Counted from the first letter of the stretch, positions 8,527-46,219 are shown. The stretch: DNA of 51,828 bases from Methanobacteriota archaeon (GCA_016841625.1 JAENYU010000025.1:1-51828), one strand, 5' to 3'. Notes: generated by a model not told the origin, from the sequence alone. A program made the numbers and translations.

Positions 8527-9693
8527 TTGCAATCTATAGTACAGGAAGCAATGAAATATACCGAAAAAGAGAAGGAATTCCGTAAAAACGCGGCATCTGA
8601 GGGAGATTTTGAAGAATTCGGCCAGCCGCGGATCATGATCGTAGGATGCGGGGGTGCCGGGAACAACACCATAAACCGTCTCTACAATATCGGGATTGAG
8701 GGAGCGGAAACCGTCTGCATCAATACTGACAAGCAGCACCTGGACAATGTGAGGGCTGACAAGAAGATCCTTGTGGGAAAAACTCTCACCAGGGGGCTGG
8801 GAGCCGGCGGTTACCCCGAAACCGGAAAGAAAGCCGCCGAACTTGCAAGAGGCACTCTTGAAGAAGTATTAAAAGACGCTGACCTCGTATTCGTTACCGC
8901 AGGTCTCGGTGGAGGTACCGGGACCGGAGTTGCCCCCGTGGTCGCAGAAGTCGCAAAAGAGCAGGGTGCCATCGTAGTAGGCATGGTCTCCAGCCCCTTC
9001 AGGGTTGAGAGAGCCCGCATCGTCAAGGCAGAGGAAGGACTTGAAGACCTCCGCCGGGCAGCGGACACCGTGATCGTCCTGGACAACAACAGGCTGCTCA
9101 ACTACGTCCCCAACCTTCCCATCGACCAGGCCTTCTCCGTCATGGATCAGCTCATTTCCGAAACCGTAAAAGGCATAACCGAGACCATCACCGTGCCTTC
9201 CCTTATCAACCTTGACTACGCCGACATCAGGACCATCATGAGCTGTGGCGGGGTTGCCGTAATGCTTGTGGGCGAGTCCAAAAGTCAGGACAAGAGCACT
9301 GAAGTGGTGCGGACTGCCCTGAACCACCCCCTGCTCGACGTCGATTACAAGGGTGCAAGCGGAAGCCTGGTGCATGTGACCGGAGGCCCGGACCTGAGCC
9401 TGAAGGAAGCCGAAGAAATCGCCTCCATGCTCACCTACGAACTTTCGTCCAATGCCAATGTCATCTGGGGCGCAAGGATCAGGGATGATTACGAGGGCAA
9501 GGTCCGTGTTATGGCAATCATGACCGGCGTCCAGTCAGCTCAGATCCTCGGACCCCAGGCAGGTTCCGGGATTCTGGAACCCCAGAGCGAAGCCGATGCC
9601 TTCCGGGCAAAGAGGTTAGGAAGACTGAACCAGGGGCAAATGGGCGAAATCAGGAAAAAGAACGACAATTCGATCATTGACTTCATAAACTAA
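8527..9693 (+). CDS. ftsZ: Cell division GTPase FtsZ
   Basis: The tubulin/FtsZ GTPase signature GGGTGTG is at residues 128-134, the N-terminal nucleotide loop is [17 protein letters not shown], and the T7 synergy loop is NLDYAD (228-233). The 388-residue length is normal. The C-terminus [10 protein letters not shown] is set off by a polar linker and is the likely anchor-binding peptide; in archaea SepF is the membrane anchor and sepF is in this window at 22356. The start is TTG at 8527 with GAGGGG at 8516-8521; an in-frame ATG at 8551 is the alternative. Methanosarcina can carry more than one FtsZ-family gene, and I did not subtype this one. Confidence 0.95.
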
Positions 9694-33290: not shown

Positions 33291-36122
33291 TTATTCTTTC
33301 CGTATATCCCCCTCGATCCTGTCGAGCAGGACTTTGAGGCTTTCTTCGAACTCCTTTCCTACGGGGATCCCGTTCCTGACCATGTACTCTAGCTGGGAAA
33401 CCGCACTGTCAAGTTCCGATATGTTTTCCCCTGCATAGCCCCGGAGGTCTTCAAGAGCCCTCAAAAGCTCGGGTTTCTCGTTGACCCCGGCGTAGAGGAG
33501 AGCTACTTTGGATGTTTTTTCGACCACTTCACAGGTGATCCTTTTTATCTCTTCCCGGCTCGTGCTTATTTTGAGGGTCTGTTTTGTCTTTTCCAGGCTC
33601 TCTTTCATTTCCTCTTCTTCCCGGTCAAGCCTTTCGAGAGCGTCGAGGGCTGCAAGGAATTCCGGGACTTCCTGGTACCTGTCCGCTTTTTCCTGGGCAA
33701 GCATCTTTTCAACAATACCTTCATAATGACTCAGGGAAGGGTTTGTTTCTGAAAGAGCCTCGGGTCTTACATCCTTTGAGAGGATTTTTCCGAGCACTGC
33801 CCCCATCGAGCACCCGGAATAAGGAAGTTTTCCCGTAAGGAGTTCGTAAAAAATCATCCCGAGCTGGTAGATGTCTGTCCTCTGGTCAGGTTTCCCGTAC
33901 AGCTTTTCATCAAGCTGTTCGGGAGCTGCGTAGAGGGGAGAATAAGCGTTGTGGGTGGTCAGGGAGTTTCTTGCCCCTATTTTCGCAAGCCCGAAGTCCG
34001 TGATCTTCGGGTTCAGGTCGCTCTGGAGGAGCACGTTCAGGGGTTTTAAGTCGTGGTGGTAGATCCCCCGGGAATGGGCATGGGAAAGCCCTGCCGCAAT
34101 CCCCCGGATAAGCTTCAAAGCTCCGGCTTCAGGCAGGGGTTTCGGGTACTTTTCAAGTTCCAGGACCGAAATGCCGTCTTTTTCCACCCCTTCGATATAT
34201 TCCATCTCCAGGTAGGGCACGGGCAGGAGGTCTGACTTATAGAGCTTTACGATGTTTGGGTGGTTCAGGTTGTACCAGGCAGCCACTTCTTTTATGAAAT
34301 AGGAGCTGGTCTTCTCGTCGATCCGCGGAATCTTCAGGGCCAAAATTTCTTCATCAGTCTTCCTCTTTGCCTTGAAAACAGCTGCAAACCCGCCTTTCCC
34401 GAGCAGCTCAAGGGGCTCGTATTTTGAAAGAAGCCCCACCGGGAAACCTTCAACCGGGGAGACCAAACCGTCTCCGGGAAGGGAAACCTTCTCTTCGGCT
34501 GTTATGTCTACTAGTTCTTCTACCTGCTGTATCCCACTCAAAGGCGCAGGAGGAGATGAAGGTGAAGGCGAAGGCGAAGGTGAAGGCGAAGGTGAAGGCG
34601 TGGATGCCGCAGTTGGTGGAACCGTATCCGTTACAGGAGGTGCCGCATCAACTGGAGAATCCGGACCATCCATCCATTCCGGTTCAGGCTCACTTTTAAT
34701 CTCGGGAGCCGGGGCATCAACATTAAACGTGGAATTCATAGTAGCTTCGTTTCTCGAAGCAGAAACTCCCTTATCCCCGGGGATTTTTTCTTTTTTCAGC
34801 TTTTTCCAGCCAAAGCTCTTTTTCTCACTTTTATTGTCCATTTTCTTATTTGCTTCGGTTTTACTGTCCTTGCTTTTATCGTCTTTACTCTTATTGCCCT
34901 TGCTTTTGTCAGCTGATTTCTTTTCAGAATTCGCTGCCTTGACGGGACCGAAAGGCCCTGAAGCCCCGGAAGGACCAGAATTACCGGAAGAACCGGAAGG
35001 ACCGAAAGAACCGGATGGGTCCGGTGAACCCGGAGATATAGCGGCTGCAGCCTTCTTTTTTGATTTTCTCCGCTTCAGCAAAAACAGCCCACCTACAATT
35101 AAAAGCAGGAAAAGGAGTCCTCCTCCCCCTCCGGATGAGCCGTCAGGGTTTTCCAGCGCCACCTGACCTGCAGAAGAACTCTGCGCTCTCTCGGACATTT
35201 CCCCGGCAAAGTTCAACCTCTCTACCGGAAAGTCCCAGAAAAGTTCCCTGGAAACCGCGTAGCCCTGTATAAACTCATCTTCGGGATAGTAAATCCAGAA
35301 AAGGTCTTCAGTCGGGTCATATGTCCAGACGATTCCGAGCTCTCCTTCCCTTTGCCAGGCAACGTTTCTGGCTTCAAGCTCCCCGTAGACTCGCCACAGG
35401 TCTTCCCGGGGTTCATAAACAGCCAGCAGCCCGTTGTAAGGGGAGTACATCAGGAACAGGTCTCTTGGAGGCGCATAACTCCAGAAATAGCCCTTGTTTT
35501 CAGTCCTGTGCCAGACCAGCCCGTCAACCAGTTCTTCATTAGTGAGGAAAGGCTCTGATTCGGACGAAAGTGAAGAATCTACCCCCTCTTCTACGGCCCA
35601 ATCCTCGGCCCACTCCTCGGCCCACTCCTCAGCCCAATCCTCGGCCCAGTCTTCAGATTCGACACCGTCAGCAACCCCTGCATCAGGAAACATTTCCCCT
35701 GCCTCAACATAGTCCCAGACAAGCCCCGGGTCAGGTTCATACGTCAAGTAGGCTGCGTTGTAGGAGTCATACAGAAAAATCTGGTCATAACCGGGATCAT
35801 AGGCATAAATTTCGTATTCCGTTGCCCCCTGAACCCAGACAAGATCATAATAACCGGATGGATCGTTATTCAGGTCGTAATTTATCGAATATCCGGTAAG
35901 CCCTGAAATTTCTCCATTATACATATCCAGTTTCCAGAAGAGGTCGTCGAGCGGGTCATATACCCAGAAAACATCGTTTATCCCGTCGTACATCCCGTAG
36001 ATGCCGTTGGTGGGTTCGTAAGCCCAGGGATTCTCATCACCGGACCCGGCTGCTGCGGACTGGACCATGCAGCCGAGAAGGATCAGAATTAAGAACAGTT
36101 GCAGGGGGGGTTTTCTAGTCAT
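33291..36122 (-). CDS. Transmembrane Ser/Thr protein kinase with aromatic-repeat sensor domain
   Basis: 943 residues from ATG 36122 (a TTG at 36137 is possible). A signal peptide (MTRKPPLQLFLILILLGCM) leads into an external domain of about 300 residues built from motifs like YDPLDDLFWKLD and YDPTEDLFWIYYP, with an acidic insert of repeated EDWA/EEWA. One membrane helix is at about 330-347, then a Lys-rich, Ser/Pro/Gly-rich linker. The kinase domain has GKGGF 575-579, Lys597, HHDLKPLN with Asp691, and DFG with Asp709, so it looks active; the usual HRD is HHD. The last 90 residues resemble the C-terminus of the TPR protein encoded upstream. It probably senses an external signal and phosphorylates cytosolic partners; the signal is unknown. 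Confidence 0.88.
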   Translation of the reverse strand: MTRKPPLQLFLILILLGCMVQSAAAGSGDENPWAYEPTNGIYGMYDGINDVFWVYDPLDDLFWKLDMYNGEISGLTGYSINYDLNNDPSGYYDLVWVQGATEYEIYAYDPGYDQIFLYDSYNAAYLTYEPDPGLVWDYVEAGEMFPDAGVADGVESEDWAEDWAEEWAEEWAEDWAVEEGVDSSLSSESEPFLTNEELVDGLVWHRTENKGYFWSYAPPRDLFLMYSPYNGLLAVYEPREDLWRVYGELEARNVAWQREGELGIVWTYDPTEDLFWIYYPEDEFIQGYAVSRELFWDFPVERLNFAGEMSERAQSSSAGQVALENPDGSSGGGGGLLFLLLIVGGLFLLKRRKSKKKAAAAISPGSPDPSGSFGPSGSSGNSGPSGASGPFGPVKAANSEKKSADKSKGNKSKDDKSKDSKTEANKKMDNKSEKKSFGWKKLKKEKIPGDKGVSASRNEATMNSTFNVDAPAPEIKSEPEPEWMDGPDSPVDAAPPVTDTVPPTAASTPSPSPSPSPSPSPSSPPAPLSGIQQVEELVDITAEEKVSLPGDGLVSPVEGFPVGLLSKYEPLELLGKGGFAAVFKAKRKTDEEILALKIPRIDEKTSSYFIKEVAAWYNLNHPNIVKLYKSDLLPVPYLEMEYIEGVEKDGISVLELEKYPKPLPEAGALKLIRGIAAGLSHAHSRGIYHHDLKPLNVLLQSDLNPKITDFGLAKIGARNSLTTHNAYSPLYAAPEQLDEKLYGKPDQRTDIYQLGMIFYELLTGKLPYSGCSMGAVLGKILSKDVRPEALSETNPSLSHYEGIVEKMLAQEKADRYQEVPEFLAALDALERLDREEEEMKESLEKTKQTLKISTSREEIKRITCEVVEKTSKVALLYAGVNEKPELLRALEDLRGYAGENISELDSAVSQLEYMVRNGIPVGKEFEESLKVLLDRIEGDIRKE

Positions 36123-36213
36123 CGGGATCAACCACAAACTTTATTGTAAATTATATAAGGAAACAATATTAATATCTTTGTTAAAAGTTCTTTGATTCTC
36201 TTTTGGAGTTCGC

Positions 36214-37176
36214 TTACTCTCCAGTCCCCCTTTCTATTTTCTTAAGCAGAACCTTCAATCCTTCTACAAAATTATCCCCTATGGAAACATCATGCTTCAA
36301 CATGTACTTTAATTGGGACACGGAACTTTCAAGTTCTTCATCACGATTCCCCATATAGTTCTTTAAATCTTCTAGCTTAGTGAGTACTTCAGGCCGATCA
36401 TTCATTTCTGCATAAAGTAGAGTTAAGTTTACTAGATTTTTAACAAAATGCAGGTTAACCATGTCATTCCTTTTTTCAACATCGCGATGAGAATTCAAGC
36501 ATTCATTTAAACAATCTTCTGCACATTTTCTACCTTTTTTTGCTTCATCCAATTCAGGTTTTAATTTCAACACATTCTCATAACAGATTATTGCTTCATC
36601 ATATCTTTCAAGTTTACAGAGAGAATTCCCCTTACCTAACCATGAGTAAAAAAAGATAGGATCAATGTCAATGGCCACCTCAAAAGAATTTATTGCTTCT
36701 TCATAAAAACCAAGTTCATAAAGCACAAAACCTTTACCGTTCCAGGGAAATGAAAGATCTTTCTTTAGTTTGCTTGCTTTGTTATAACATCTGATGGCAT
36801 CTTTATATTGGGCAAGTTCTCGAAGAGCATCCCCTTTCCCATTCCAGGCATAGGCGTTGCCAGGGAAAACGGAAATCGATTTATCATAACATTTCACAGC
36901 GTCCGAGTTTTGCATCAATCTTCTAAGCGTATTTCCTTTCCCAACCCAGGCTTTGGCAAAATTATATTTTATGCAGAGTGCACTTTCATAGCACCCCAAC
37001 GCTTCATCAAAACGACCAAGGGTATATAGCACATTTCCCTTGCCATTCCATGCATAAGCATAATTCGGAGACGTTTTTAAAGCTCTTTCATAGCAATACA
37101 ATTTTTCTTCTTGATTGGGGGCTTTCTTCCCCCGCTCAAACCATCTTTTAGCGATTACTCTTTTATCGCTTCTCAC
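36214..37176 (-). CDS. TPR protein with kinase-shared C-terminal module
   Basis: 320 residues from GTG 37176. Six consecutive 34-residue tetratricopeptide repeats (for example EEKLYCYERALKTSPNYAYA and DEALGCYESALCIKYNFAKA) occupy residues 18-225. A C-terminal module of about 90 residues follows (LLYAEMNDRPEVLTKLEDLK ... SVSQLKYMLK ... EGLKVLLKKIE) that matches the C-terminus of the neighbouring kinase without gaps over about 64 residues. TPRs bind proteins, so it may be an adaptor or substrate of the kinase. Its DNA is visibly more AT-rich than both neighbours, suggesting separate origin. Confidence 0.85.
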   Translation of the reverse strand: MRSDKRVIAKRWFERGKKAPNQEEKLYCYERALKTSPNYAYAWNGKGNVLYTLGRFDEALGCYESALCIKYNFAKAWVGKGNTLRRLMQNSDAVKCYDKSISVFPGNAYAWNGKGDALRELAQYKDAIRCYNKASKLKKDLSFPWNGKGFVLYELGFYEEAINSFEVAIDIDPIFFYSWLGKGNSLCKLERYDEAIICYENVLKLKPELDEAKKGRKCAEDCLNECLNSHRDVEKRNDMVNLHFVKNLVNLTLLYAEMNDRPEVLTKLEDLKNYMGNRDEELESSVSQLKYMLKHDVSIGDNFVEGLKVLLKKIERGTGE

Positions 37177-37200: not shown

Positions 37201-39147
37201 TTAAGCCCCTTCTCGCATCATAACGAGCCCCACATCCTCAACAAACTGGACCTTCAGGCTCCTCTCATCCGCATAATCGTAAAACAGAGACTTCAGGGCA
37301 GGAGTGTTCCCGAAGCTTTTCATGAGGTCATCAAAGACCGCGTAATCTTTTACGAGCAGCCCGTCTTCGATCGCTTTCCTGACCGTGAGTTTCAATTTTT
37401 CGCTCTTTTCGGTTTCGGTTTCCATCTCACAGATTCCTGCAAATTCTTTTGCGAGGGCATCGTGAGGGTTGTAGAGCTGCTTTCCGGTTTCAAGGTCAAG
37501 GAGGCAGACAGAGAGGTATTTTGAGAGGAAGTTCCGGTGGAAGTCGTCACTGCTGACGTAGCTGCCCACGGCATCTTCAAAGCCGGTAGGGGAGGCAAGG
37601 CAGAGGAGCGCGGATTCTCCATTTTCCCTGGCTTCGTCCCGGGCGTCCACCAGGTAGGCGTTGAAGTCTTTGAGTTCCAGGGGGTCCGTGTCGTAACCTG
37701 ATTCTGCGTACTTTTCCACCCGGGCGGAAAAGAGGGCTTTGAGCTTGTACCTTTGCTTTTTCCCGAGGAGTTTCTTTTCCACTAAAGAGGCAAGCAGGGC
37801 ACGGTTTTCGGGGAGGTTTTTCAGGTCCCTTTCGGAGAGCCCGAAGCTTTCAGCAAAGCGGGAGGTGTCAACCTGTTTGATCTCCTGGGGGGAATCCACT
37901 TTATAGCTTTTCCCGCCGAGGGTGACCGAGTTTCCGAGCTTGTGTTCGATCCTGCCAATGAAATTCAACTCGTACTGCTTGACTTCTTCGAGTTTGACGT
38001 ACCTGCTGCCCTTTCCTTCCATCAGGGCTTTTTCTTCCGAAAGCCGCCTGAACTTTTCTTCAACCTTTGTCTTATCGGCAGCCATTTCACTGGCCTGTTT
38101 CTCAGCAAGCTCTTTTTCAGCGGCGAGGGCCTGTATCTGCTCTTCAACCTGTGCTTTTTCGGACTCAAGGGCCTTTATCTGGTCTTCGCTTCCTGACTTT
38201 TCGGCCTGCATCTCCCTGAGCCTGGACTCGGCTTCAGCTTTCTGGGCGGCAATTTCCTGCAGCTGGGACTCGGTCCTGGACTTTTCTTCAGCCACCACCT
38301 GGAGAAGGGACTCGGCTTCATCCCTCTTTTCGGAGAGCTGCCTGACCCTGGCATCTGCGGCTTCTTTTTCGGAAGAAATGCCCTGAAGCTGCTCATTTGC
38401 ACGGGCTTTTTCAGCCTCTGCCTGCTTCAGGCTTTCTTCTGCGAGGGCTTTTTCCGTGCCCAGTTTTGCAAGCTCGGCTTCGGCAAGTTCCCTTTCTGCC
38501 TCAGCCCTTTCTTTTTCCGAACCCAGCTCCCTTGTGCTCGCTTCGACCTTTGCTTCTGTTGCAAATTCCCAGGATTTGATGAGGGATTTGAGCCAGTCCA
38601 GTTCAAGAATCGAAGAACTGACAGCCGTGTTAAGCTTTTCCTTGTAACCGTCCCATTTTTTCTTCAGGTAGTAGCGGAGAGTGAGCCTGAGGGAAGGGTC
38701 ATCGAGCTGCTCGCTTACCCAGGAGTCCATGGAAACGTAGTAGTCCCTGAGAAGCTCGAGTACAGTATCGTCTTTCTGGATGAGTTTTTTCCTGATATCG
38801 TCTGCAGAGAGGATTTCAAAAAGGTTGTAGCGCTCAATTTTTTTGTAAAGCGCAACTTCTTCGGCACTGAAGATGTTTGCGGCTCCGAAAAATTCCCCGT
38901 TTTCCCTGAAACTTGCCGCAAGCACCAGGAGCGCCCCGTCGAAAAGGGAGCAGAAGTGCTGGTCCAGGTCTTTCAGGAACGTCCCGCATTCCTCATCCAG
39001 GTAGCTGTCGTAGTTCATCCGGATTTTATTCCAGAGATCGACTCTTCGCTCAAAGGCGTCGTGTTTTATGGGCATCCCTACTTTCAGCACCCTTTTTGCG
39101 GGTTTCAGAAGTTTTTCAGCGCAATCGATATTTCCCTCTGCAAACAA
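37201..39147 (-). CDS. Large coiled-coil protein of unknown function
   Basis: 648 residues from TTG 39147 behind GGTGAG. Three parts: an alpha-helical N-terminal domain (1-205), a long continuous coiled coil (about 205-385) rich in Glu/Ala/Lys/Gln with phrases such as EKALAEESLKQAEAEKARA, and a C-terminal domain (about 390-648) that starts KYVKLEEVKQYELNF-like and is mixed alpha/beta. No membrane segment is seen. I do not recognise the family. The coiled coil suggests a scaffold or dimer-forming role. It is followed by the TPR gene after 24 nt on the same strand, so the two may form an operon with the kinase. Confidence 0.75.
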   Translation of the reverse strand: MFAEGNIDCAEKLLKPAKRVLKVGMPIKHDAFERRVDLWNKIRMNYDSYLDEECGTFLKDLDQHFCSLFDGALLVLAASFRENGEFFGAANIFSAEEVALYKKIERYNLFEILSADDIRKKLIQKDDTVLELLRDYYVSMDSWVSEQLDDPSLRLTLRYYLKKKWDGYKEKLNTAVSSSILELDWLKSLIKSWEFATEAKVEASTRELGSEKERAEAERELAEAELAKLGTEKALAEESLKQAEAEKARANEQLQGISSEKEAADARVRQLSEKRDEAESLLQVVAEEKSRTESQLQEIAAQKAEAESRLREMQAEKSGSEDQIKALESEKAQVEEQIQALAAEKELAEKQASEMAADKTKVEEKFRRLSEEKALMEGKGSRYVKLEEVKQYELNFIGRIEHKLGNSVTLGGKSYKVDSPQEIKQVDTSRFAESFGLSERDLKNLPENRALLASLVEKKLLGKKQRYKLKALFSARVEKYAESGYDTDPLELKDFNAYLVDARDEARENGESALLCLASPTGFEDAVGSYVSSDDFHRNFLSKYLSVCLLDLETGKQLYNPHDALAKEFAGICEMETETEKSEKLKLTVRKAIEDGLLVKDYAVFDDLMKSFGNTPALKSLFYDYADERSLKVQFVEDVGLVMMREGA

Positions 39148-39299
39148 TTTAACTCACCCTACCTTCTAAGAAATCTACTCATCTTCCCTGTTGCTACTCT
39201 TAAATTATCTTCAACACTTACTAATTTTATCGTATTCTTACCTAACTTTAATCGAATTCTTATCTAACTTTAATCAAATTCTGCATTCATTTTCCTTTA

Positions 39300-39833
39300 T
39301 TACCCAAGGAAAATTCTCATTTCCTCATCAAGCCTATCGGCAACAAAATCAACAACGTTTCCGTATCCTTCGACGCTGATTACAAACCGGAGCACCCTTT
39401 CTTCCTCTTCATCCCCGCAAGCACAACCGATCCAGCGGATTTCAAGCTCTGCCTGCCCTTTTTTCGTGTAAGCGGTGTAGTAACTGGCACTCTCGGTGGA
39501 ATACTCAAAGCTGGCCCCAAGCTTGCTCATTAGATAATTCAAAAAGCTCTGGATGGCTTCAAACCTTTCAGGGCTCTCATAAACAAGTTTTCGACTCTGT
39601 TTTTCAACGGATGGTTCATATGGCTCAATCCTGTAGATCTCCACCTTTCCGGCCTCGACATCTAGCCGAGAGTAAAGGTCTTCGATGAACTCGTCCACAT
39701 CAGGGCCTTTAAAGAGCAGCACTGCGCCCCTGGGCTTTTTTACCTTTGCCCTGTCGCCCCACCGCTCGACAGTGTAATCGATCCGTTTGCGTTCAGCGTC
39801 CGAACCATAGTCAATGGTAAACAGATATTCCAT
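39300..39833 (-). CDS. Hypothetical protein divergent to the ESCRT-like operon
   Basis: A 177-residue soluble protein, MEYLFTIDYGSDAERKRIDY at the start, with alternating strands and helices, a CACGDEEEE motif and an acidic end. No family is recognised. The TATA element on the minus strand (39856-39875) would place the transcription start only a few bases before ATG 39833, so the transcript is probably nearly leaderless. The same element, mirrored, precedes the operon on the + strand, suggesting shared control with the ESCRT-III-like genes. Confidence 0.65.
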   Translation of the reverse strand: MEYLFTIDYGSDAERKRIDYTVERWGDRAKVKKPRGAVLLFKGPDVDEFIEDLYSRLDVEAGKVEIYRIEPYEPSVEKQSRKLVYESPERFEAIQSFLNYLMSKLGASFEYSTESASYYTAYTKKGQAELEIRWIGCACGDEEEERVLRFVISVEGYGNVVDFVADRLDEEMRIFLG

Positions 39834-40164: not shown

Positions 40165-40776
40165 ATGGGAATCAAGGACATAATGGACACTTTTAAGAAG
40201 AACCCGGTTGACAAACTGAACACTAGAGACCTCCAGGAAGAGGAGATCCGCCTGAAGAACCGTATGGAAAGGATCAGGAAAGACATCAACAAGATCGAGA
40301 AGGACAAGAAGCAGAAGTTCCAGGAAGGGGTCGGGGCAGACATGATGAAAAAGAAGATGCTCGCCCAGGAGATCAAGCAGCTCGACACCGAAGCCCGGCT
40401 CAAGCTCAAGAACTTCACGACCATCAACAAGCAGTACATGTTCGTCTCCAACCTGACCGTGGTCAAGAAGTATGAACAGGACCTCAAGAAGAACAAGATC
40501 TGGGACAAGATAGGGGAAATCGGCTCCGACAACTTCGAAAGTGCCCTCATCAACACCAGTCTTGTAGGAAAAGACTTCGATGAAGTCCTGAATGACCTGA
40601 ACAGGGTCTTTGAAATGGACATCACGGACTTTGAAGCCGGGGAAGACGAAGCCGAGTCCCAGCTCCTGGATGCCTGGAGCAGCGTGGAATCCGGGGCAAT
40701 GGACGTGGAAGAGGTCGAGCAGACCATTTCCCTTGAAAAGAGCCTTGAAAAGGACAGGGAAGAGACCGAGTTTTGA
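40165..40776 (+). CDS. ESCRT-III-like coiled-coil protein A
   Basis: 203 residues from ATG 40165, chosen because AGGTGAT (40154-40160) is its Shine-Dalgarno and the paralogue also starts MGI. The N-terminal half is a basic helical hairpin (EEEIRLKNRMERIRKDINKI, then DMMKKKMLAQEIKQLDTEAR). The C-terminal half is acidic and helical, ending in a segment with SQLLDAWSSVESGAMDVEEV. Basic-then-acidic helices of about 200 residues are the hallmark of ESCRT-III/CdvB/Snf7 proteins. It aligns with the next gene along its length, including VSNLTVVKKYEQDL against VSNMLILKEHQADL and IWDKI against VWDKV. The fold call is an inference; a PspA-like protein is the alternative. Confidence 0.65.
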   Translation: MGIKDIMDTFKKNPVDKLNTRDLQEEEIRLKNRMERIRKDINKIEKDKKQKFQEGVGADMMKKKMLAQEIKQLDTEARLKLKNFTTINKQYMFVSNLTVVKKYEQDLKKNKIWDKIGEIGSDNFESALINTSLVGKDFDEVLNDLNRVFEMDITDFEAGEDEAESQLLDAWSSVESGAMDVEEVEQTISLEKSLEKDREETEF

Positions 40777-40845
40777 AAGGCATGAAGCCTGCAAGATAAG
40801 AAGCATCACAGCACAGGAGCCTAAAAAACCAGAGGAAGGGAAAGG

Positions 40846-41445
40846 ATGGGCATCTTTTCAAAACTGTTCGGAAGCAAGGACCCTATTGACTCCATGAAGA
40901 CCGAAGAACTCCGGGTCATGGAAATCAAACTGAACCGCAAGATCGAAGACCTCCAGGCTGAAGTCAGGGCAACGGAAAGTGAGGTAGCTAAACTTTTCGA
41001 AAAAGCTAAAGCCGCCAAATCAAAAAGTGAAGAACTCACCCTGGCCCGCAGGATCAAGACCGTTTCCCAGAGAAAGGAGATGAAAATCGCCGCCCAGGCG
41101 AAACTCGACAAGGAACTCCGGGCCGTTTCCAACATGCTGATCCTCAAGGAGCACCAGGCCGACCTCCAGGCAACCGGCGTCTGGGACAAGGTCAAAAAGC
41201 TTGAGCCCGAAAAGCTCGAAAACTGGCTTGTCAACCAGAACCTGGAAGCTCAGGACCGGGATGAGATTGTCTCTTCCATTGTAGACATGACCTCCACGGC
41301 AATGCTGACCGGAGTCGAGCAGGAAGAGGACCTGGACGACATCCTGAGCGCGATCCGCGCTGTAAAAGACGGAGACCTTGACCCGGATGAGGCAGAAGAA
41401 GTCGTGAATGATAATAAGGAGTACAGACCAAAGGACCTGGAGTAA
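40846..41445 (+). CDS. ESCRT-III-like coiled-coil protein B
   Basis: A 199-residue paralogue of the preceding protein. An amphipathic-looking N-terminus MGIFSKLFGSKDP could insert into membranes, as in CdvB/Vipp1 relatives. The central helical hairpin (ELRVMEIKLNRKIEDLQAEV and following) is positively charged, and the C-terminal third is acidic with EEDLDDILSAIRAVKDGDLD, reminiscent of an MIT-interacting motif. ATG 40846 lies 69 nt after gene A. A TPR gene and a Vps4-like ATPase follow on the same strand. In the ESCRT model these proteins polymerise on membrane and the ATPase remodels them. Confidence 0.65.
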   Translation: MGIFSKLFGSKDPIDSMKTEELRVMEIKLNRKIEDLQAEVRATESEVAKLFEKAKAAKSKSEELTLARRIKTVSQRKEMKIAAQAKLDKELRAVSNMLILKEHQADLQATGVWDKVKKLEPEKLENWLVNQNLEAQDRDEIVSSIVDMTSTAMLTGVEQEEDLDDILSAIRAVKDGDLDPDEAEEVVNDNKEYRPKDLE

Positions 41446-41500
41446 ATCCGGCATGCAAATCCATGTAAACCCCGCATAAAAAATTCCGGGAGGCAGAGCT

Positions 41501-41830
41501 TTGGGACTGAAAGGATTCTTAGAACAAATATTTACGAAAAAAATAGACGGAAAAAACTCCCAGGAATGGTTCAACCTGGGAGCAATGGAAAGGGACCCGG
41601 CAAAAAAGGTGGAATATTTCGGCAACGTGGTAAAGTTGAAACCGAACTTTGTAGGTGCTTTGAACCTTCTGGGAAATGCCCACGTCGAACTTGGCGAATA
41701 TGAAAAAGCCCTGGAATGCTATGACGAAGTCCTTTCCATCAGGCCCTCCTACAGGGAGGCACGGAACAACAAGGAAAATCTTGAGAAAAAGATGAAAGAA
41801 ACCGGGGCAGAAGCCGGTGAAGGGGAATAA
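41501..41830 (+). CDS. Small TPR protein, 109 aa
   Basis: Starts at TTG 41501 behind GGGAGG (41488-41493). MGLKGFLEQIFTKKIDGKN is followed by SQEWFNLGAMERDPAKKVEY and two TPR units (FVGALNLLGNAHVELGEYEK, ALECYDEVLSIRPSYREA), ending in a charged tail. A paralogue with the same layout is at 45875. The hydrophobic-basic N-terminus resembles that of ESCRT-like protein B and may contact membrane. It lies inside the operon between gene B and the ATPase, implying a role with them, perhaps as adaptor. Confidence 0.75.
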   Translation: MGLKGFLEQIFTKKIDGKNSQEWFNLGAMERDPAKKVEYFGNVVKLKPNFVGALNLLGNAHVELGEYEKALECYDEVLSIRPSYREARNNKENLEKKMKETGAEAGEGE

Positions 41831-41931
41831 AAGCCCGGGAAATACGTTCCGGAACACGGTAGCAGGAAAATAAAAGCCGGAAAAAAGCTACTAACAGCTT
41901 CTAATCATTCAACCGCCGTGAGGTAAACAAT

Positions 41932-43182
41932 ATGAAAGTGGATCTGACAGGCCCCCTGTACTCCTCCCTGGAAATCGCTACAAAAGAGTACAAGCAGGCA
42001 AAAGCCGAGGGAAACGCAGGGAAAGCAAAGAAAAAAGCCCTGGAATGCGCGAAAATAACTAAAGTCCTGGCCGAAAAAGTCCCGTCCCAGAAAAATGCCT
42101 ACCTTGAAAAAGCCGAAAAGTGGGAAAGGATTGCCGATAATGTGGAAAATTCCATCCGGGCACAAAGGGAAGGGTCTTCACGTTCCGGAAAATCCAGGGG
42201 AAGAACTGGGAGCGGTCCGGGCAGGACAGGAGGAGGCGGAAGTGGAAGCGGGGGTGGAAGTTCCGGAGGAGCAGAAGTCGAAAACGAAGACGAATTGCTC
42301 GCTCAAGCCGAAGCTCTTATTGAGAAATCTTCTGTCCGCTGGGACGACATCGGCGGCCTTGAAGAAGTCAAGCGCCTCATGAAAGAGACCATAGCCATTG
42401 CCGGGCTCCAGAAACCAAGCTCGGTCAAACCCTGGAAAGGGATCATGCTCTTCGGGCCCCCGGGGACCGGAAAGACTCTCCTTGCCGCCGCTGCCGCAGG
42501 GAGCCTTGACGCCGATTTTTTCAATGTGAAAGCTGACAATGTGCTCTCCAAGTACTTCGGGGAATCCTCGAAGCTGGTTTCCGCCCTCTATAAAGCCGCC
42601 CGGAACCATGCCCCATCGATTGTTTTCATTGACGAGTTTGACTCCATCAGCCTCTCCCGGGAAGGCGAAACCAGCGAGTCCTCCCGCCGCCTGCTCTCGA
42701 CCCTCCTCGCGGAACTTGACGGCCTGCAGGACAAGAAAAGCGACAGGCTAATGCTTACCCTGGCAGCCACAAACACTCCCTGGGACCTTGACGCAGCCGT
42801 CCTCTCAAGGTTCCCACGCCGCATCATGGTCCCCCTCCCGGACAAAAGCGCCTGCAAGGAGATTATCAAGATCCACATAAAGGACCTTGACTCCTCAAAG
42901 CTCGACATTGACAAACTCGCTTCCACCTGCGTTGAAAAGTTCTACGCCGGCCGCGACCTCCAGAACCTCTGCCAGCAGGCTATGTGGAACATGATCCGGG
43001 AAGAGAATAAAGACCTGGACAAGCTTGCGGAACTTCCCTATAAAGAGCTTGAGAAACGGAAGCTGAATGTAACTTCCCTGAAGTTCGATTATTTTGAAAC
43101 GGCGTTCGAGAAGATCAGGTCTCCGCTTACGAAAACACAGCTTGGGAAGTATGAGAAGTGGAACGAGGAGTTCGGAGGCTGA
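41932..43182 (+). CDS. Vps4/CdvC-like AAA ATPase with MIT-like N-terminus
   Basis: 416 residues. Residues 1-78 form three helices (YSSLEIATKEYKQAKAEG, KAKKKALECAKITKVLAEK, NAYLEKAEKWERIADNVENS) like an MIT domain. A Gly/Ser-rich linker (about 80-115) leads to the AAA domain with WDDIGGLEEVK, Walker A GPPGTGKT (175-182), Walker B IVFIDEFDS (Asp234, Glu235), sensor TNTPWDLD, and RFPRRIMVPLPD, closely matching Vps4. The C-terminal segment KYEKWNEEFGG corresponds to the Vps4 C-terminal helix. This clade (Vps4, CdvC, katanin, spastin) pulls ESCRT-III or other polymers apart. Start ATG 41932 has GTGAGGT upstream. Confidence 0.85.
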   Translation: MKVDLTGPLYSSLEIATKEYKQAKAEGNAGKAKKKALECAKITKVLAEKVPSQKNAYLEKAEKWERIADNVENSIRAQREGSSRSGKSRGRTGSGPGRTGGGGSGSGGGSSGGAEVENEDELLAQAEALIEKSSVRWDDIGGLEEVKRLMKETIAIAGLQKPSSVKPWKGIMLFGPPGTGKTLLAAAAAGSLDADFFNVKADNVLSKYFGESSKLVSALYKAARNHAPSIVFIDEFDSISLSREGETSESSRRLLSTLLAELDGLQDKKSDRLMLTLAATNTPWDLDAAVLSRFPRRIMVPLPDKSACKEIIKIHIKDLDSSKLDIDKLASTCVEKFYAGRDLQNLCQQAMWNMIREENKDLDKLAELPYKELEKRKLNVTSLKFDYFETAFEKIRSPLTKTQLGKYEKWNEEFGG

Positions 43183-43266: not shown

Positions 43267-44214
43267 GTGATCCCTCTGGCAAAGGAAAGCAAAAAAACCG
43301 GCACCCTGACAGCTGATGAATGGTTTGAGCTGGCTTACGAAAAGGAAAAGCCTGAAGAAAAACTCCGGTGTTATGAAAAAGCCCTGGAACTGGACCCTTA
43401 CCACATAGATGCCTGGTTTGAGATCGCAGGTGTTTACCTGGAGCTTTGCAAGTTCGATAAGGCTATCGAAGCCTATGAAAAGACAACGGAACTTGACCCT
43501 GAGCACTACGAAGCCTGGCTTAATGAGGGCAATATCTTTGCGGCTTTCGGGGTTCCGCGTCAGGCTATCGGATACTATGAAGAAGCCCTGGAAATTAACC
43601 CTAAAATGGCCCCTTTGTGGGTAAACATGGGGTCAGCTCTCATGGACCTGGATGAAGTTGAAGAAGCCCTCAAATGTTTTGACAAAGCCCTGGAACTGGA
43701 CCCGGAAATAGGAGGGGCCTGGATCTCTAAAGCCAATGCCCTCTACCTGCTTGACAGAGATGGAGAAGCCCTTGTATATTATAATAAAGGGCTTTAAATG
43801 GAGCCTGAAGACGTGGGGGCCTGGACCAACCGGGGAAATGTGCTTTACCTGCTTGAACTGTTTCCCGAAGCCCCTGAGTCCTGCGAAAAGGCGATTGAGC
43901 TTGACCCGGAATATGGAGAAGCCTGGAATTCAAAAGGCCGGGTCCTGGTCGAACTTAAAAAGTTCAGGGATGCCCTCAAGAGCTTCGAAAAGGCTATAAA
44001 ACTCGATTATGAGGATGAAGAAGTCTGGCTAGGGAAAGGAAATGCTTACGAAGGGCTCGATAAGTATGAAAAGGCTCTTGAGTGTTATAGCATGGCCATT
44101 GCCTATAACCGTGGGTTTGCAGAAGCCTATAAAAAGAAAGGGGATGTGCTTATGGCCCTTGGAATGTTTGATGAAGCTGTGGACTACTATGAATGGTATC
44201 AAGAAATACCTTGA
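43267..44214 (+). pseudogene. TPR gene interrupted by one in-frame TAA
   Basis: Two halves (176 and 138 residues) lie in the same frame with no gap: ...YYNKGL, TAA at 43795-43797, then MEPEDVGAWTNRGNVL. Together they make about eight and a half continuous TPRs, and the stop falls exactly where the repeat expects Glu, so a single GAA-to-TAA change explains it. The start is GTG 43267, followed by TADEWFELAYEKEKPEEKLR, the N-terminal signature shared with the other TPR genes here. TAA excludes pyrrolysine readthrough. It may be a recent nonsense mutation, a sequencing error, or two proteins with the second starting at ATG 43798. Confidence 0.75.
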
Positions 44215-44598: not shown

Positions 44599-45795
44599 TT
44601 GAACCCCATAAGGGGCATATTAAGAGAGCCGTGCTTGGCTTTTGGGGAATGTATCAATGGGGTGAATATCATTCGTCGAAGAACAAAAAATGGGGAAAAT
44701 GGAAGTAAAATCACTAATCTTAAAAGAGCTAAAGAATGGTTTGTGATGGGCCTGAACACGTCAGACCCGGAAGAAAAATTGCTGTATTACGCCAGAGCCT
44801 TAAAAAGCAATCCTGAGTATGTTGAAGCCTGGATTGAGAAAGGAAATGTCTTGCTGGAGCTTGGGGTTGCAGAAAGTGCAAGCAAATGTTACGGCAGGGC
44901 TCTTGAAATCGGGCCGGACTCCCTGGAGGCGCTGGCTTATAAAGGAAATGCCCTTTTCGCTGCAGGCAAGTACGGAGAGGCAGTTGAATGTTATAAAAAG
45001 ATCCTTTCCCGGGAACCTGAGACTGCCGGGACCTGGCTCAATAAAGGAATTGCTTATGCCAGAATGGGACAAGTGCAAAAAGCCCTCGACTGTTTTGAAA
45101 GAGCCGTTGACATTGAACCTGAATTTGCAAAAGCCTGGCTTTTCATGGGAGATGCCCTGGTAACTATCAGGAAGTATGCAGAAGCGCTTGAGGCTTATGA
45201 TAAGGGGCTTGCAATAGACCCTGAAGTCGCTCCTTCCTGGACCAGCAAGGGAAAAGTACTCCGCAAACTTAATAGGCATCAAGAAGCCCTCGAATCCCTC
45301 AACAAAGCCCTCAATCTGGACCCGGAATCTTTCAGGGCCTGGGGCAGTATGGCAGGTTCGCTCTATATGCTTGGGAGGTATGAGGAAGCGCTTGAAGCCT
45401 GTGACGGAGCCATTGAACTTGAACCGGAGTTTGGGCCCTGGAATGACAGGGGCATTGTTTTAGTTAAGTTAGGAAGGCTTGAAGAGGCCCTTGAAGCATA
45501 TGAAAAAGCGCTGGAATTAAAGATGGACAATGCGAAAACCTGGTTCAACATGTGCGACGTCCTTGCCGCCCTCGGGAGATACGAATATGCCCTGGGGTGT
45601 TATAATAAAGCCCTCAAGCTCGATCCCAGCTCAAAAGTTGCCTGGAATGAAAAAGGAAATTTTCTCCAGAAATTCGGAAGTCTCGGGGTAGCCCTGAAAG
45701 CTTGAAAAAGCGCTGAACCTGGCAAGAACAAACAGAAACCGGGATTCAATAAACATACTTGAGGCAGCCTTAGCTCCCAAAAAAGAGATTTGAAG
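44599..45795 (+). pseudogene. TPR gene with C-terminal frameshift
   Basis: The open frame runs from TTG 44599 to TGA 45703-45705 (368 residues) and holds about nine TPRs after the signature AKEWFVMGLNTSDPEEKLLY. It ends abruptly in the middle of a repeat (GVALKA). A shift of frame at about 45702-45704 restores the repeat as EKALNLARTNRNRDSINILE up to TGA at 45793-45795, as if two bases of a Tyr codon (TAT) were lost. Seen directly: the broken repeat and its continuation in another frame. Inferred: a 2-nt deletion or sequencing error. The true start may be GTG 44662, since the first 20 residues look non-coding. Confidence 0.7.
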
Positions 45796-45874
45796 ACATC
45801 AAGACCGGCATTACCTATTTCTGTCACCACCCTTTTCTGCCTGTAAAGCCTATGTTTAACAGGGAGTGATGCCG

Positions 45875-46219
45875 TTGGGATTTCTGGACAAACTGCTTAA
45901 AAGGAAAATCGAAGGCAAGACCGCACACGAATGGTACCAGCTTGCGGTTGCCGAACCCGATCCCGTTAAAAAGATAGAATGCCTCGACAAAGTGATCGAG
46001 CTAAAGCCGGACTTCGCCGGGGCCTGGAACCTCAAAGGGCTTGAATATGTGGTCCTTAAAAAGTACGAAGACGCCATTGCCTCCTTCGACAAAGCGCTTG
46101 AAATAAAGCCGGGTTACCCGGAGGCTAAGTATAACAAAGAAGATGCCGAAACCGAGTTAAGGAAAATGGGAAAAGGTGAAGGAGAAACAGCTGTTGAAGG
46201 TACTGCAGCAGAAGCCTAA
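45875..46219 (+). CDS. Small TPR protein, paralogue of the one at 41501
   Basis: 114 residues from TTG 45875 (GTG 45866 and ATG 45869 are possible), with GGGAGTGAT at 45862-45870 as a well-spaced ribosome binding site. MGFLDKLLKRKIEGKTAHEW parallels the start of the 41501 protein (GFLEQIFTKKIDGKNSQEW), followed by PDPVKKIECLDKVIELKPDF and two TPR units (AWNLKGLEYVVLKKYEDAIA, SFDKALEIKPGYPEAKYN) and an acidic/Ala tail. It closes the run of + strand TPR genes that begins beside the ESCRT-like genes and is convergent with the reductase gene. Confidence 0.75.
   Translation: MGFLDKLLKRKIEGKTAHEWYQLAVAEPDPVKKIECLDKVIELKPDFAGAWNLKGLEYVVLKKYEDAIASFDKALEIKPGYPEAKYNKEDAETELRKMGKGEGETAVEGTAAEA

Follow-up and report, generated by a model that had tools for sequence, protein, structure and literature searches.

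ESCRT machinery pinches membranes in eukaryotes. In archaea, vesicles of S. islandicus are made by ESCRT, whereas a Ras-like GTPase is used instead in halophiles (PMC12134362). The closest described system is the 'Main' euryarchaeal ESCRT clade of Makarova et al. (2024; PMC10936438), which comprises Vps4, ESCRT-III, arCOG09748 and arCOG08177, often together with a membrane Ser/Thr kinase. In the text of that study, arCOG09748 is described as having a helical N-terminus, a coiled coil, a globular domain and a C-terminal winged helix, arCOG08177 as a Cas2-like domain plus a TBP-fold domain, and the kinase, common but not universal, as carrying a small C-terminal helical, PCI-like domain; the hosts named are Thermococcales, Methanococcales, Methanomicrobiales, Halobacteriales and 'several other archaea', and vesicles and protein sorting are argued to be the role of euryarchaeal ESCRT. 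A study of 2022 concluded that the Cdv domains of Euryarchaeota do not make up a common functional system (PMC8970359).

The locus described here lies in a window of 51,828 nucleotides from a Methanobacteriota archaeon (GCA_016841625.1 JAENYU010000025.1:1-51828), the window being the whole stretch of DNA that was analysed, and its core (40165-43182) consists of four plus-strand ORFs in the order A, B, T and V (Table 1). Taken as a whole, the locus is probably a member of the 'Main' clade that serves in membrane remodelling other than division. As in the description of that clade (PMC10936438), a Vps4 with an MIT domain, ESCRT-III, arCOG09748-like and arCOG08177-like proteins occur together in an FtsZ-bearing host, and the kinase of the window has a TM segment, a kinase domain and a C-terminal helical module. 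It differs from that description in having two ESCRT-III paralogues of one ancient duplication, TPR genes both inside the core and surrounding it, and a helical module common to the kinase and a TPR protein; furthermore, Methanosarcina-type hosts are not named in the part of the study available. The novelty implied by the first-pass annotation has to be given up, a system of this type having already been published in 2024. What is new here is the A/B duplication, the helical module that the kinase has in common with a TPR protein, and a DisA-like fusion in relatives.

With the Cdv system of TACK archaea (CdvA-CdvB-CdvC) the locus shares ESCRT-III-like hairpin proteins, an MIT-AAA ATPase and the adjacency of their genes, but here A and B have no MIM2, the host has FtsZ-family genes, a receptor-like kinase is present and no CdvA was recognised among the locus neighbours. 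Common to the locus and to eukaryotic and Asgard ESCRT-III-Vps4 are the predicted hairpin fold, the MIT domain, the arginine-finger deletion and two ESCRT-III classes, whereas no ubiquitin-linked or ESCRT-I genes were recognised at the locus and the similarity of A and B to those ESCRT-III sequences is below detection.

Table 1. Features of the candidate ESCRT locus (positions in the window)
Feature	Position	Strand	Evidence
Receptor-like Ser/Thr kinase	33291-36137	-	Pfam Pkinase 1.2e-41; TM, module
TPR protein with C-terminal helical module	36214-37176	-	Pfam TPR; module identity
C, 648 aa, arCOG09748-like	37201-39147	-	Recurrence, alignment A7
G, 177-aa protein, arCOG08177-like	39300-39833	-	Size, layout, position; recurrence
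A, ESCRT-III-like subunit, 203 aa	40165-40776	+	AF2, Foldseek, alignment A3, tree
B, second ESCRT-III-like subunit, 199 aa, paralogue of A	40846-41445	+	Identity to A, tree
T, small TPR protein, 109 aa	41501-41830	+	Pfam TPR_1 E=5.5e-12
V, Vps4-like AAA ATPase, 416 aa	41932-43182	+	Pfam AAA 1.4e-36, arginine-finger deletion, tree
MIT-like three-helix domain of V, residues 6-82	41947-42177	+	AF2, Foldseek
Downstream TPR genes	43267-44214 (two frames), 44599-45705, 45866-46219	+	TPR similarity to T

The ORFs of the core are separated by 69 bp (A-B), 55 bp (B-T) and 101 bp (T-V). A and B had been annotated as two paralogues of about 200 residues with basic N-terminal and acidic C-terminal halves, with which the ORFs, the identity and the pI values agree: they share 25% identity (E about 1e-17) and are hence paralogues, their first 110 residues are basic (pI 9.8 in A and 9.5 in B) and their C-terminal parts are acidic (pI 4.05 and 4.09, respectively). 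The small TPR protein noticed in the operon corresponds to T, as its TPR_1 match confirms, and locus comparison revealed that its position is preserved in the closest relatives of the window's locus.

The structure of A, the one of the two subunits to be modelled, was predicted by AF2 from alignment A3, which holds 40 class-I rows. The model (pTM 0.69) shows a helix at residues 3-11, a hairpin at 20-55/60-102 with pLDDT above 90, and shorter helices afterwards; together with the pI this gives a layout of amphipathic helix, long hairpin and acidic tail, and a long alpha1-alpha2 hairpin plus shorter C-terminal helices is the arrangement of the ESCRT-III superfamily. The helical hairpin, on which the first-pass annotation had staked its ESCRT-III reading, is thus present in the model, with CdvB, CHMP and Vipp1 among the nearest folds. 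The top Foldseek match of A in the PDB was a CdvB2 filament (prob 0.87, E 0.6), and members of the ESCRT-III superfamily (CdvB2, CdvB, Vipp1/PspA, CHMP2A/CHMP3) made up 16 of the 50 best PDB rows. As every E-value was 0.6 or worse and TM was about 0.4, the fold match is to be read as support and not as proof; other coiled coils, e.g. TRIM5 and UvsY, were found in the list as well.

Neither Pfam nor NCBIfam gave an informative match for A or B. Snf7 was absent among the Pfam families listed for the 40 class-I members, and PspA_IM30 among the library families listed for A, B and the class-I members. Pfam Snf7 is an unfair test, since the positive control S. acidocaldarius, which divides by CdvB, also registers with it below the cut-off. 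The class-I profile matched S. islandicus CdvB at E=0.093, aligned across the hairpin. Simple patterns for MIM1 and MIM2 were not found in the tails of A or B; MIM2 is reported missing in Euryarchaeota (PMC8970359) and is therefore not required of euryarchaeal members. The proposed homology of A and B to ESCRT-III rests on predicted fold and context, with no significant sequence similarity. A mixed alignment, A1, had merged class I with a Methanolobus-type class II, and matches to class II were not counted for A and B. As profiles built from A3 only do not reach the class-II ESCRT-III-like proteins (E=0.41; hhalign probability 15%), the two classes were kept apart.

V contains a single AAA domain with intact Walker and sensor motifs, and the two motifs on which its initial assignment was based were located at residue 292 (SRFPRRIMVPLPD) and residue 406 (KYEKWNEEFGG). 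The sequence of V before the arginine finger is D-A-A-V-L-S-RF and lacks two residues present in the RPGRF form, which is found in Cdc48 and the class-II ATPases. Such a shortened arginine-finger region is the form of Vps4 and katanin, and PDB katanin chains align as far as the final residues of V. Phylogenetic analysis, which had been proposed as a check, set the class-I ATPases apart from the genome's own Cdc48 as a 100/100 clade on a long branch. An 86/82 branch separates class I and yeast Vps4 from Cdc48 (the outside group) and class II; the yeast sequence being approximate and on a long branch, its placement is a lead only. Vps4_C was dropped as a Vps4 marker: it scores 24.1 bits in V, above the cut-off, and carries no weight because a Cdc48 of the same genome scores alike (22.3) and passes too.

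The N-terminus of V (first 85 residues), modelled by AF2, is predicted to form a three-helix bundle (helices 6-26, 29-49 and 51-82; pLDDT 88.6). In Foldseek it superposed on the Sulfolobus Vps4 MIT domain 2v6y (TM 0.71/0.80, rmsd 1.9 Å) and on 2w2u (rmsd 1.8 Å), and 4a5x matched likewise, in line with the three-helix MIT domain that had been suggested for this region. The TM-scores of the archaeal MIT matches are among the best in the list, yet E-values are 1-2, and three-helix bundles are common. A Pfam MIT match was obtained for 4 of 27 relatives (best 9.6e-7), the V of the window not being among them, and the MIT-alignment profile retrieved from the PDB mostly designed bundles and ribosomal S20, with VPS4B at E about 2.

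Divergently upstream of the core (37201-39833) lie the arCOG09748-like gene C and the arCOG08177-like gene G, and the view that TPR adaptors stand in for the accessory proteins could accordingly not be maintained. Both were assigned to these families by architecture, size and position and not by arCOG profile. C has a helical N-terminus, a coiled coil and a conserved C-terminal domain, and found no library match (Pfam, NCBIfam); G likewise had no library match, and neither the G profile against the PDB nor the members of alignments A6 and A7 against the libraries retrieved a Cas2 or winged-helix domain. In the receptor-like kinase, a hydrophobic start and repeats were seen together with a TM segment near residue 336 and the kinase domain at residues 573-821. 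Its C-terminal helical module shares 42% identity with the end of the neighbouring TPR protein; we infer that this module may serve both proteins as a common docking module. TPR genes recur near ESCRT loci in a comparison of 20 loci, and it is uncertain whether the TPR genes downstream of V are part of the system. The helical module was also seen on genes adjoining ESCRT loci elsewhere (L081, L087, L126, L128, L129, L137 and L153).

The four genomes of the genus to which the window belongs have close orthologues of A and B, as do a few neighbours, and class-I relatives were also found in families of the order and phylum that are further removed; the tally of 45 out of 393 genomes given by the mixed alignment takes in class-II proteins. 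V lies near class-I ESCRT-III-like (S) genes in almost all loci having enough flank, and S-V pairs occur across the phylum, often accompanied by the C family (17 of the 20 loci compared) and the G family (14 of 20). The gene order, the conservation of which was in question, thus recurs phylum-wide, with S-V adjacency far above chance. This conserved gene set, together with the 2024 study (PMC10936438), argues against the 2022 view that there is no common system (PMC8970359). In the tree of alignment A3, A and B each form one clade spanning families (95/99 and 99/96, respectively), so that the tandem pair goes back to a single old duplication; in some lineages there is just one S gene. Conservation of the pair points to an early origin of a two-class ESCRT-III polymer in this euryarchaeal line. 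Within the Methanosarcina-containing genus to which Methanosarcina sp. KYL-1 and UBA289 belong, A and B were detected in only 2 of at least 20 genomes, and a role in sarcina packing, also put forward by the first-pass annotation, was rejected because of this distribution.

One genome with the full locus has a second class-I Vps4-like ATPase (L097:284-1468; G079:C247); it is followed by a repeat-protein gene, and there is no S gene on that short contig. In three other class-I Vps4-like ATPases (L084:10708-12504, L094:932-2722 and L095:2918-4708), which are about 600 aa long, the C-terminus is extended. The extension of L094 matches the DAC (DisA) diadenylate-cyclase domain at E=1.7e-16, and those of L084 and L095 align to it. 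The catalytic motifs appear as DGV and RHS where DGA and RHR are usual, so the DisA-like domain may lack activity. No report of a Vps4-DisA-like fusion was found in a literature search.

These data were weighed against other explanations. It is unlikely that A and B are unrelated coiled-coil hairpins which, in a locus of signalling or conflict type without membrane remodelling, serve a Vps4-like unfoldase as its substrate or adaptor. The lack of significant sequence similarity to ESCRT-III, the weak Foldseek E-values with TRIM5 and UvsY in the same list, the kinase and TPR genes close by and the DisA-like domain on the ATPase of some relatives would all fit such a locus; on the other hand, the nearest folds of A are strongly enriched in CdvB2, CdvB, Vipp1 and CHMP, V has an MIT-type N-terminus, and the published ESCRT clade has a matching gene set (PMC10936438).

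The host genome has three FtsZ/tubulin-family genes, and the proposal of a diverged ESCRT-III/Vps4-like system in an FtsZ-bearing methanogen stands, the hairpin, the separation from Cdc48 and the gene order all holding. The FtsZ-family genes and the patchy distribution make a division role unlikely, and with FtsZ present, non-division membrane remodelling is the likeliest function of the putative system. That the same ESCRT-type machine helps FtsZ divide, in late scission or daughter separation as in TACK archaea, is distinctly improbable: Cdv systems do divide TACK cells, and the fold and the ATPase are of that type, but the genome has its three FtsZ-family genes, near relatives of the host are without A and B, which, given their presence in so few genomes of the Methanosarcina-containing genus, cannot be required for division in general, and sorting or signalling is suggested by the accessory genes and the receptor-like kinase. 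The locus bears on what ESCRT does in FtsZ-dividing archaea. Methanosarcina is a genus with established genetics, and a complete kinase-linked locus in and near it would allow a direct test of a non-division role. One of the three FtsZ/tubulin-family genes is located inside the same window (8527-9690).

A descent of A and B from PspA/Vipp1-type envelope-stress proteins obtained from bacteria is highly improbable: bacterial-type PspA is reported for some Methanosarcinales (PMC8281802), and Vipp1 rows among the Foldseek matches of A reflect a shared fold superfamily, but there is no sequence match, PspA_IM30 being absent among the families listed, the ATPase partner is of MIT-Vps4 type and not PspF, and the pair is old and common to several archaeal families, so that neither the library scans nor the A/B tree support such an origin.

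In the preferred reading, a non-division ESCRT system, the gene content, the conserved gene order, the predicted folds, the intact ATPase motifs and the ancient A/B duplication are results of the analysis; polymerisation, MIT-tail contact, kinase coupling and biological output are inferred. A and B would be membrane-binding ESCRT-III subunits and would form a joint polymer at the inner face of the cell membrane, the basic hairpin facing the membrane and the acidic C-terminal tail acting as an autoinhibitory and recruiting arm. C, with its coiled coil, and G may nucleate or position the polymer, while the receptor-like Ser/Thr kinase and the TPR proteins could link assembly to an outside signal or to phosphorylated cargo. 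The MIT domain of V would dock on the tails of A and B, and V would extract subunits using ATP, whereby the membrane might be constricted or cut. The output is likely to be vesicles, protein sorting or membrane repair sooner than cytokinesis. A more specific version, offered tentatively and somewhat doubtful as a whole, is a signal-gated membrane cutter, in which A and B, the products of one split that preceded the divergence of several families of the phylum, would be obligate partners switched by the kinase, with its module also on a TPR adaptor, and in which Vps4-DisA-like proteins would add cyclic-dinucleotide wiring in some relatives.

A second, separate pairing was observed in other genomes of the phylum (L098:9728-11533, L093:8970-10693, L129, L142, L153 and L154). 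Its ESCRT-III-like proteins match Pfam Snf7 weakly (13 of 15 members, best 1.2e-4), and at several such loci the Snf7-matching protein adjoins an AAA ATPase with RPGRF that lies nearer to Cdc48 in the tree. Two genomes, G353 and G390, have both pairings.
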